41,911 nt of DNA, taken from Bacteroidota bacterium. Lineage in GTDB: Bacteria; Bacteroidota; Ignavibacteria; Ignavibacteriales; Melioribacteraceae. Where the stretch lies: NCBI GenBank assembly GCA_018818165.1, contig JAHISP010000096.1, forward strand, positions 1 to 41,911, given 5' to 3'. The position numbers were made by a program, and so were the translations under genes. Within the stretch, counting starts at the first letter, position 1, and each line of letters starts with the position of its first letter. The notes under the pieces were generated by a model. That model did not search any database. It had not been told where the DNA came from and saw only the letters and a program-made list of their open reading frames with translations. Shown in pieces: positions 12,747 through 16,270 of this stretch.

Positions 12747-12761
12747 AATATATTTTTCCAA

Positions 12762-12847
12762 TGTCATTACGAGGAGTCCTTTTTTTTAGGACGACGAAGT
12801 AATCTGCTAATAAAGATTGCTTCGGCAAAAGATGCCTCGCAATGACA
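12762..12847. repeat. REP-like palindromic repeat element, 86 bp
   Basis: TGTCATTACGAGG (12762-12774) is matched at the other end by CCTCGCAATGACA (12835-12847), a 13-bp inverted repeat with one mismatch. Nested inside are GTCCT/AGGAC (12776-12780 and 12788-12792) around a T-run, and GACGAAGTAATCT / AGATTGCTTCGGC arms. The GTCATTGCGAGG and AGATTGCTTCG words are typical of dispersed palindromic repeats found in many bacteria. It fills the gap between glyS and gmhA and includes an in-frame ATG upstream of gmhA. Confidence 0.8.
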
Positions 12848-12876: not shown

Positions 12877-14355
12877 TTACTTTAATTTATTTAATAAATA
12901 AACAAGCAACGAATCAGTGCTAACTCTAACTTGTTCCATTGAGTCGCGTTCTCTAACAGTAACTGTTTTATCTTCAATAGTTTGGTTATCAACCGTAATG
13001 CAAAAAGGAGTTCCGTTTTCATCTTGCCGTCTGTATCTTCTTCCAACAGCACCTTTTGAATCATAAAACACTTTAATAAATTGGCTTAATTCAGCTTCAA
13101 TTTCTTTTGCAATTTCTGGCATTCCGTCTTTATTAACCAAAGGAAAAATGGCTGCTTTAATTGGTGCTAATTTTGGATGAAATTTTAATACAACACGAAG
13201 TTCGCCATTAACCTCTTCTTCGTGATATGCGTTTACTAAAAATGCCATAAAAGAACGACTTGCACCTGCTGAGGTTTCAATTATATAAGGAATAAATTTT
13301 TCTTTTAATTCATCGTCAAAATACTGTTGCGATTTACCCGAAAACTGCTGATGGCGTGTTAAGTCAAAATCAGTTCTGTTGTGAATTCCTTCAATTTCGC
13401 CCCAACCGAATGGAAATTTATATTCCACATCTGTAGCTTCTTTTGCATAATGTGCCAATTTATCTTTTGGATGATCGTGAAAGCGGAGGCTCTCTGTGTC
13501 CATTCCAAGATTTTTGTACCAGTTAATTCTTCGTTCTTTCCAAGCATCGTAATGTTCTTTGTCATTACTTGGATTTACAAAATACTGCATTTCCATTTGT
13601 TCAAATTCTCTTGTTCGGAAAAGGAAATTTTTAGTGTTAATTTCATTTCTAAAAGCCTTGCCAATTTGAGCAATTCCAAAAGGAAGCTTTTGACGGCTTG
13701 AATTTTGCACATTTTGGAAGTTTACAAAAATTCCTTGAGCCGTTTCTGGACGAAGGAAAACTACGTTGTCTTCACTTTCAATAGGTCCAACAAAGGTTTT
13801 AAACATTAAGTTAAAATTGCGTGGTTCGGTAAATTCACCTTTTGTTCCACAATTTGGACAGTTTGCTTCTTTTAACAATTGAAAAGCTAATTCTTTCTTT
13901 TCCAAAATGGCTTCAAATTTGGCATCAATTTCTGGATGAATTTGAGTAATGTTTTCAAGTAAAACTTTATTTTCTTCTGAAAGATTTAATTCGAAATCTT
14001 CAAGAATTTTCTTTTTCTTTTTCTCTGCAATTGAGTCGCCAAGAGTATCAACGCGAAAGCGTGATTTACATTGTTTACAATCAATCATTGGGTCGGTAAA
14101 ATTTTCAACGTGACCAGAGGCTTCCCAAACTTTAGGATGCATCAAAATTGCCGCATCTAAACCTTCAACATCTTCGCGGTAAGTCATTGCTTTCCACCAT
14201 TCTTCTTTTATGTTACGAAGAAGTTCTACACCTAATGGACCGTAATCCCAACAACCATTTAATCCACCATAAATTTCACTGGATTGAAAAACAAATCCTT
14301 TCCTTTTTGCTAATGAGACAATTTTCTCAACAACATTTTTTTCATTCTGTGCTAT
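12877..14355 (-). CDS. glyS: Glycyl-tRNA synthetase, apparent AUA start
   Basis: 492 aa class II dimeric-type GlyRS (alpha2). If begun at the first in-frame ATG (14187) it would lack 56 residues that are clearly GlyRS: the upstream reading frame encodes [20 protein letters not shown] then DYGPLG. The open frame runs up to a TGA at 14407-14409 and contains no ATG, GTG or TTG in that stretch. GAGG stands 6 nt before an ATA codon at 14355-14353, giving (M)[11 protein letters not shown]. Motif 2 is [19 protein letters not shown] and motif 3 is GASRSFMAF; two CxxC pairs (CKQC, CPNC) lie in the insertion. It charges tRNA-Gly. Family and extension are certain; the AUA start is inferred. Confidence 0.93.
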
Positions 14356-14434
14356 GATAAACCTCGAGACAATTATTATTAAAAATATTAGTGCAAATAT
14401 ATATAATCAGGCAATAAAATAACTCAACAACTTG

Positions 14435-16270
14435 CTATTTAAGTAGAATCATGCCTTTTGTTTGTGAATATGTATCCGTAATTAGTTGGTAATAATAAAT
14501 TCCACTCGAAAGATTATTTTTGTTGGAACTAAAAATAACCTCGTGATTTCCTTTACCCAAATTATCATTAACCAACGTTTCAACCAACTGTCCTAACGAA
14601 TTGAATATGTTTAGTTTTACATTTTCGGCGTTTTTAAGTTTAAACTTTATGGTTGTTGTTGGGTTAAATGGATTTGGATAATTTTGGAACAATTCAAAAG
14701 TTTCAGCAATTTGGTTATCCTTAACGCCAACAACAGGTCCACGATAAATTACTCTAATAGCATCTGCCACAACAGTTCCATTAGCTTCATCTGTTAAAGT
14801 AATTTCTATTTTGGAAGTATCAAATAATTCAACATTAGATAAAAGATTCCACTGACCGCCTTTAGTTTGTTGAGATTTCTCAATTATGTTTTCATTGCCA
14901 TTACTGCCAATAACAAATTTTGCATTTGTAGCGTTAGCCGAGTTTGAAGTCCACCAAGCATAAACGTCGTAAATTCCACTTTCAATAATTTCAGTTTGGA
15001 ATGTAATTTTATTATCGCCAAATCCAGAATTTATGTAATAAAAGTCATTTCCATAAAAATCTTTTCCAGAATCGGTTGAGTTCCAAAAGCCAGAAGCTTG
15101 GGCGGAATTGTTATCAAGAATAATCCGTTGTGAACTGGAAAGTTCAAGAAACTCCGCAATTCCATAAACGGTTGTAGCTCCAAATTGAAAAAGATTTTCG
15201 TTTGTAACCCATTCGCCATTGGAATATTGGTCGTAAGGCGTTTCGTAAGTTAAGGCAAGAATTTCATCGCCGTAATTACTCCACATAAATCCTTCGGGAA
15301 AATAACTTTGAAGGTTCGATTCACGGTAATCAGATTTAATAAAATAAGGTAAATCAGAAATAGCAAGATTTGTAAATTGATATTCGCGACGATAAAAATA
15401 AGCCGAAGTTGAACTTGCTGTGTGAATCCAAAAAGTTGGATAAGGAGCAGCTTGCGAATGAAGATTTAGTGCAACCGAAATAACTTTTTCATCATTTATT
15501 TGCTTCATTCTATTTTTGAGCAATAAAACTGCCGAAGTTGTTTCGTTATCTGGAAAATTCCAATCGCGTTCTTGGTCAACTCCATAATAATTTGTCCGCG
15601 AGCGACCATAATAAACGCCTTCGGGATTGTTAAAAGGATATAAATAAAAGATAATATTCTTTCTGTAATAATCAATTGCCTCATCATTTTTAAGCAATTC
15701 TTGCATAATTCCATCAAAATGCCACGAACTTGGAGTTTCACTTGGGTGAGTTCTTGAATGAATCCAAACACGCAATTTATTTTCGTCAGGAACTGAAGAA
15801 TCGGTTAAAACAATTTCTTGAACTGGAAAATTATGTTCGGTAAAACCCAAAGTATCAATTTTTACAAATTCGCTGTTTCCCCATTCAGCCAATCTTTCTT
15901 GAAGATAATTGTAAGAATATGGTGTGTAATATGCTACAAAGACAGTATCGTTTTCGAATAATTTTTCAAAATAATTGACTTTTGGTGATTCAGTTTCGGA
16001 AAAACGGACAAAATCCAAATTATTGTAGGAATACATTGGTCTGTTTACATCGCTATTTGTAATTGTAACTTTTATTAATTTGTCCTTAACTCCGCTAATT
16101 CTAAAATAAAACCATCTTCCGCCAATATCTTCAACTGATTTAACTGTGTATGAAATTGAATCGGTAGTTGAAACCGAAGCAAGGTTTCCGCTATCAAAAT
16201 TGGCATCAAACGTAATTTGTGCTAAAATAACGGTATTTAATAGAATATATATAAGAATTTTAAGTTTCAT
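14435..16270 (-). CDS. Secreted M14 zinc carboxypeptidase with T9SS sorting domain
   Basis: 611 aa. A signal peptide (1-17) is followed by an N-domain like that of cytosolic-carboxypeptidase-type M14 enzymes (about 20-150), then the M14 domain: zinc ligands H175 and E178 in HPSE, H271 in LNLHS, and the catalytic Glu E343 in TYETPY. Residues about 385-512 form a golvesin-like beta-sandwich (GIYDVYAWW, then VADAIRVIY). The C-terminus, FELFQNYPNPFNPTTTIKF to KGMILLK (527-611), is a type A sorting domain of the type IX secretion system. The mature enzyme should be outside the cell or on its surface. Its stop lies 79 nt upstream of the glyS start on the same strand. Confidence 0.9.
   Translation of the reverse strand: MKLKILIYILLNTVILAQITFDANFDSGNLASVSTTDSISYTVKSVEDIGGRWFYFRISGVKDKLIKVTITNSDVNRPMYSYNNLDFVRFSETESPKVNYFEKLFENDTVFVAYYTPYSYNYLQERLAEWGNSEFVKIDTLGFTEHNFPVQEIVLTDSSVPDENKLRVWIHSRTHPSETPSSWHFDGIMQELLKNDEAIDYYRKNIIFYLYPFNNPEGVYYGRSRTNYYGVDQERDWNFPDNETTSAVLLLKNRMKQINDEKVISVALNLHSQAAPYPTFWIHTASSTSAYFYRREYQFTNLAISDLPYFIKSDYRESNLQSYFPEGFMWSNYGDEILALTYETPYDQYSNGEWVTNENLFQFGATTVYGIAEFLELSSSQRIILDNNSAQASGFWNSTDSGKDFYGNDFYYINSGFGDNKITFQTEIIESGIYDVYAWWTSNSANATNAKFVIGSNGNENIIEKSQQTKGGQWNLLSNVELFDTSKIEITLTDEANGTVVADAIRVIYRGPVVGVKDNQIAETFELFQNYPNPFNPTTTIKFKLKNAENVKLNIFNSLGQLVETLVNDNLGKGNHEVIFSSNKNNLSSGIYYYQLITDTYSQTKGMILLK

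Follow-up and report, generated by a model that had tools for sequence, protein, structure and literature searches.

How translation of a glycyl-tRNA synthetase begins when its frame offers none of the usual start codons is the question raised by a 41,911-nucleotide stretch (hereafter the window, meaning this stretch at its full length) of a Bacteroidota bacterium of the family Melioribacteraceae (contig JAHISP010000096.1, assembly GCA_018818165.1). The minus strand at 12877-14355 encodes the dimeric glycyl-tRNA synthetase (GlyRS, gene glyS), of 492 codons when counted from an ATA and with the stop included, and the whole protein scores above the curated cut-offs of both NCBIfam models for glycine--tRNA ligase, NF003211 (672.9 bits, cut-off 312) and TIGR00389 (541.4 bits, cut-off 243.3), that is, as a dimeric, bacterial-type enzyme.

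The glyS frame and its start site

From the in-frame TGA at 14409-14407 down to the ATG at 14187-14185, this frame contains no ATG, GTG or TTG, as the first-pass annotation had stated and as reading the frame bears out; after the TGA its codons are TTA TAT ATA TTT GCA CTA ATA TTT TTA ATA ATA ATT GTC TCG AGG TTT ATC ATA GCA CAG. A GAGG (14365-14362) lies 6 nt before the ATA at 14355-14353, the letters TTTATC intervening, exactly as had been noted. The same annotation had assigned the 56 codons preceding the first in-frame ATG to the enzyme, and this stands, since the alignment to the solved GlyRS chains 8u2q, 8sld and 1ati starts at query residue 6-9. The features of the locus are as follows.

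12877..14355, minus strand: glyS, dimeric GlyRS (profile scores, solved-chain alignment)
14353..14355, minus strand: ATA, the putative start; the homologous codon is ATC in most of the family and ATG or GTG in some (relatives)
14356..14358, minus strand: ATC codon adjoining the start on its 5' side, 3 nt from GAGG, variable in relatives (relatives)
14361..14365, minus strand: Shine-Dalgarno (SD) core GAGG with a conserved T (GAGGT), positions -10 to -6 (46 leaders)
14394..14401, minus strand: TATATTTG, which fits the -7 element TANNTTTG, 38 nt 5' of the start codon (leader motif count)
14407..14409, minus strand: in-frame upstream stop TGA (sequence)
14185..14187, minus strand: first in-frame ATG, within the conserved part of the enzyme and unusable as a start (frame, solved chains)
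14336..14345, minus strand: ATG followed by A7 in a different frame, which would join that of GlyRS only with A8 or after a frameshift (sequence, relatives)

Two AUH codons (AUU, AUC or AUA) thus stand side by side behind the SD. The codon preceding the start varies among relatives (GTC, ATC, ACC, AAC, AAA, GCC), which marks the ATC or ATA that follows it as the conserved unit, and by this comparison the ATA at 14355-14353, rather than the ATC at 14358-14356, appears to be both the homologous and the better spaced codon (6 versus 3 nt). The ORF upstream ends at 14435, and the gap of 79 nt that separates it from glyS contains TATATTTG at 14401-14394. This neighbour (14435-16270, minus strand) ends in LFQNYPNPFNPTTTIKF..., a C-terminal end that presumably resembles a T9SS secretion sorting domain. 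Directly past the glyS stop, at 12761-12847, there is an imperfect inverted repeat with TGTCATTGCGAGG at its start and CCTCGTAATGACA at its end (minus strand).

The start in relatives and the marks of selection

Of 97 genomes searched for GlyRS, 94 yielded it. For the window's own family (f1, Melioribacteraceae) 57 genomes were searched and one was added (G258); six in which the gene or its 5' end is missing (G013, G019, G022, G040, G048, G056) were dropped, and 52 remain. In 46 of these 52 readable genes, belonging to 28 of 32 genera, the start column holds ATC (42) or ATA (4: G000, G001, G002, G036) behind an SD, a core of at least four bases having been required of every AUH start counted (all 46 in this family). 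The retention of the site in so many members, among them the second genome of the window's genus (L002), which carries the same ATA and a protein 98% identical, points to more than chance. Of the remaining six, four have ATG (genera g24 and g34), one has GTG, and G006, with an ATC two codons 5' of an ATG, is ambiguous. The proposal of AUA as the glyS start, for which the first-pass annotation had advised a comparison of close relatives, is therefore supported, as the ATC, ATG and GTG starts of relatives occupy the homologous column; a conserved ATG elsewhere, which would have spoken against it, was looked for in the window's family and is not found there.

Outside this family the start is ATC in all five glyS genes of f2, and in f3 it is ATC in 12 of 34, ATG in 15 and GTG in 7 (one genome, G077, locus L170, was left out as the anchor motif is missing). 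In more distant families of the class, 39 of the 40 glyS 5' ends fetched were read, and an SD followed by ATH occurs in ten (f19, four; f24, four; f5, one; f16, one); these were not counted as AUH starts because an in-frame ATG lies closer to the conserved block. The arrangement of an SD and ATC or ATT 5' of an in-frame ATG can be seen at loci L346, L348, L356, L358, L372, L373, L378, L381 and L382 (f19, f24 and one f5). A tree of 51 full-length GlyRS proteins calls for at least five changes between ATH and a canonical start, being a quick tree in which 17 of 48 inner branches are weak. The weak glyS start may predate the order, or it may have arisen repeatedly.

When the 46 leaders are aligned on the start, positions -10 to -6 read G (45), A (43), G (44), G (44) and T (45), the start itself has A and T in all 46 at +1 and +2 and C (42) or A (4) at +3, and G follows at +4 in 44; conservation 5' of -10 is limited to weak positions rich in A or T (0.99 bit at most). 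Among 34 same-genus pairs free of indels, drawn from 63 leaders of f1-f3 and not independent of one another, the differences from codon 2 onward fall 83, 38 and 499 times at codon positions 1, 2 and 3, a third-position bias which is the mark of coding, and in the region from -45 to -13 of the same pairs 491 of 1122 sites differ. The start codon is exclusively ATC in 26 of the 28 genera; ATC makes up 82 of 731 Ile codons (11.2%) in 27 glyS bodies and 44 of 1050 (4.2%) in 31 ORFs of the window, and the p-values computed for this contrast, which take no account of relatedness, are given no weight. A four-base SD core is found in just 8 of these 31 ORFs, scored at the first start codon of the ORF list, not necessarily the true start. 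The position of the glyS start is thus well supported by sequence comparison, and the AUH start itself appears to be real, conserved and kept by selection.

Two readings would restore an ordinary start. That a canonical codon elsewhere is used, either an upstream TTG or GTG or an internal one, is very improbable. An in-frame canonical codon does occur upstream, and upstream only, in 22 of the 52 family genomes (in one more, a TTG lies further downstream), and in 19 of the 22 it is a TTG or GTG at -12 beside the SD, in the form TTG AGG. However, such a codon is absent from the window, and 23 of the 52 have none between the upstream stop and the conserved block; the base counts at -12 and -11 (T or G in 39 of 46; T in 20 of 46) predict about 17 cases by chance, so that 19 give no sign of conservation; and after a start at -12 the GAGG would fall within the message. 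At L018 and L023 a stop codon separates GAGG from ATC, which refutes the upstream start there, and at L021, L114 and L135 a stop codon lies directly at the SD. Initiation at the internal ATG 14187, for its part, would remove 56 residues. The other reading, an assembly error or frameshifting at the ATG and A7 (14345-14336), by which an extra A or slippage would open an in-frame MKKNVVEKI, is scarcely credible: both the ATG and the A7 are present in the window, but the identical sequence recurs in the second genome, L002, and among the loci read the ATG is found in these two genomes alone, the remaining family loci retaining the SD with ATC or ATA without it. A start of this homopolymer or frameshift kind was consequently rejected.

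The same kind of start in other genes

The first-pass annotation had likened the glyS start to the AUU start of infC, and the likeness proves closer than was claimed, for the infC genes of the same genomes use AUC or AUU behind GAGG, mostly with the same spacing of 6 nt. Of 58 genomes, 55 gave an IF3 locus, and the start was read at 49 of these loci (in the range L171-L249); in 47 of the 49 the start is ATC (38) or ATT (9), behind GAGG, GGAG or GGAGG, as typed by script in 34 (26 ATC, 8 ATT) and by eye in 13 (12 ATC, 1 ATT). The two ambiguous loci belong to one genus (L193, L194); the infC of L235 has an additional in-frame ATG directly after AGG, and that of L234 a TTG there. In the window's own genome infC (L231, G000:C101:40400-43600) reads GAGGTTTACC-ATC-GGT, nearly matching the GAGGTTTATC-ATA-GCA of glyS. 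Three traits of infC-type genes with an AUH start recur in glyS: the AUH codon (AUU, AUC or AUA) with no usable canonical start, a strong SD at normal spacing (in the window, GAGG and 6 nt), and a start codon conserved between species. For glyS the weak start is dispensable, as shown by the ATG or GTG of several lineages, some of which, such as G027 (glyS L119; infC L200), have ATG in glyS yet keep AUC in infC.

The other synthetases seem to start in the ordinary way. Seven genomes supplied 52 loci from two synthetase families for this comparison (in one search, 30 of 36 matches became loci); five of them are GlyRS genes with SD and ATC, and the remaining 47 represent 46 distinct ORFs, named by our own reading as the Thr, Ser, Pro, His, Asp, Lys and Asn enzymes. 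Where a start would be expected, 45 of the 46 have an in-frame ATG, GTG or TTG; in the ambiguous remaining one, the presumed AsnRS of G078 (L318), the frame opens directly after a TGA and offers no canonical codon before a TTG, its eighth codon. For the enzyme read as lysyl-tRNA synthetase (L308-L312 and L314) the likely start is TTG or GTG.

A wider use of AUH starts was sought in G012, in twenty 20-kb stretches (400 kb, 335 ORFs) that deliberately included infC and glyS as positive controls. A survey by hexamer score was dropped, as it missed even glyS. An SD and ATH without a nearby SD-supported canonical codon were found for 31 of the 335 ORFs, against 16, 21 and 23 for three control sets of triplets; the 31 candidates were judged by eye and two were followed up besides infC and glyS. 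One of these, L270, was rejected as a spurious frame. The other (L261:2049-2564, plus strand) has GAGGTGCGAC-ATC-GGA at L261:2061 and encodes a protein of 167 codons that contains a helix-hairpin-helix domain (PF12836) and that we take to be ComEA-like. It has homologues in 57 of 58 genomes, and the starts of 29 of 30 loci were read (L384-L413), 21 in f1 and 8 in f2 and f3. No ATG, GTG or TTG precedes the conserved N-terminal segment in 10 of the 21 f1 loci, and five of these ten have an SD with ATC, ATA or ATT; a canonical codon is present in all 8 loci of f2 and f3, and the G012 copy (L261) has a TTG at -12. This is likely a third gene with weak starts in the family, and the view that AUH starts are confined to infC and glyS is contradicted by it; such starts appear to extend beyond the two genes in the window's family, if less uniformly. 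The narrow motif GAGGN6ATCGCNNAR gave 22 matches in 15 genomes, where the reversed pattern, used as control, gave 13; seven of the 22 are, by position, glyS (6) or infC (1), which leaves 15 against 13, and no additional targets stand out by this motif.

Probable control of glyS through the start codon

The sequence TANNTTTG, which we take to be the Bacteroidota-type -7 promoter element, occurs in 46 of the 63 leaders (mean of shuffled leaders, 4.7) and ends 23-45 nt 5' of the start in 45 of these 46 and 71 nt in the other, so that the leader beyond the promoter-like element measures about 25-45 nt. The structure of the region from -35 to +40 does not exceed that of shuffled sequences (mean z +0.65 over 63 leaders), and a search of 14200-14700 against Rfam gave no match up to E 1; neither the structured leader nor the Rfam match expected of a T-box or another leader RNA is seen. 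A folded leader is thus unlikely to exert control, and the start codon itself becomes the plausible site for it. A special initiator tRNA was sought in 30 of the 38 tRNA matches of the window's genome, among which there are three CAT tRNAs, in one of which, L226, the anticodon stem shows three G-C pairs by eye, and no tRNA-Ile with GAT was seen in the same 30. The 16S rRNA, whose 3' end holds the anti-SD, was not found in the available sequence of G000, G002 or G012, a genome of a single contig.

The reading that we favor, and consider probable, is that glyS has a weak AUH start which is served by an SD and is subject, like that of infC, to discrimination by IF3, glyS following free IF3 alongside infC. 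The ordinary initiator tRNA would start glyS with fMet at the AUA (14355-14353; AUC in most relatives), with the third base mismatched; what would render this weak codon usable is the GAGGU at a distance of 6 nt, within a leader that is short, unstructured and equipped with a promoter of its own. Such a codon would reduce the translation of glyS and make it dependent on IF3, which rejects codons of this kind, and glyS would most likely rise and fall with free IF3, in step with infC, given the same kind of start and site in the infC of the same genomes. The cells may in this way match GlyRS to their initiation capacity, or may merely hold its output low.

The discrimination of glyS by IF3, sharing the logic of infC, is inferred by analogy with a few precedents, taken here from the available parts of their sources. 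IF3 represses non-canonical starts, infC itself having ATT as its start in E. coli and, in Streptomyces, ATC, and the GTC start of sigR is repressed by IF3 as well (PMC5472188); in Staphylococcus aureus infC has AUA, cvfC1 AUU and ccpN AUA, with about 10% of the AUG output in poor medium (PMC13009471); and in vitro more IF3 disfavors weak third-base pairs such as AUU/CAU (PMC10158994). As these sources describe them, sigR resembles glyS as a gene other than infC with a lineage-conserved non-canonical start overlooked by gene finders, but differs in codon and gene and in that its IF3 control was tested, glyS being known from sequence; ccpN and cvfC1 likewise have conserved AUH starts aided by a strong SD, but encode a regulator and a small protein rather than a synthetase, and the SD of glyS (GAGGU) is shorter. 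With infC (AUU, AUC or AUA, under autocontrol by IF3) glyS shares the AUH start, the strong SD and a place in the translation apparatus. However, GlyRS, unlike IF3, does not inspect start codons, hence any effect of IF3 on glyS would be control in trans and not self-control, and unlike infC glyS has the AUH start in some lineages only.

An alternative with some claim to attention, although we think it unlikely, is that AUC or AUA is the true start and simply sets a constant low output, or reflects a relaxed stringency that tolerates AUH codons in general, IF3 playing no regulatory part. The sequence evidence for the start fits this equally well, as does the ATG or GTG at the same site in some lineages, and general tolerance is possible given the third gene, whose loci without a canonical start would carry AUH use beyond translation genes. 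What it leaves unexplained is why AUC alone was kept in 26 of 28 genera instead of the commoner AUU or GUG and UUG, and why nearly all the other synthetase ORFs have canonical starts. Feedback specific to the enzyme, in which GlyRS or tRNA-Gly would bind the leader and block initiation, has a precedent in the autogenous control of a synthetase, thrS of E. coli. Here the shortness of the leader, its structure no greater than that of shuffles, the weakness of all positions 5' of -10 and the absence of Rfam matches speak against it, and we regard it as most improbable; the same grounds make control based on IF3 the more probable of the two.

In the open-access literature searched no AUC or AUA start was found for a bacterial glyS or another synthetase, though an arXiv survey by Gvozdjak and Samanta could contain one, and the available parts of PMC9845219, PMC10783764 and PMC11497404 add nothing on glyS. 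In that literature, then, glyS joins the kind represented by infC and sigR as a case undescribed for an aminoacyl-tRNA synthetase. Conserved natural AUH starts are few, infC being the textbook case, and an AUC start of a synthetase across 28 genera provides a second, tractable example: its AUC, AUA, AUG and GUG alleles form a natural series in one gene, and it offers a concrete test for targets of IF3 beyond infC. Gene finders restricted to ATG, GTG and TTG would misplace the glyS start in this group.

Beyond the single gene, it is nearly as likely as not, and we put it forward tentatively, that Melioribacteraceae and their relatives possess a small IF3 circuit operating through AUC-class starts (infC, glyS and probably others, for instance the helix-hairpin-helix gene), in which the output of GlyRS tracks the supply of initiation factor. 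If this is true, glyS would be the first known case among aminoacyl-tRNA synthetases of a start codon discriminated by IF3.
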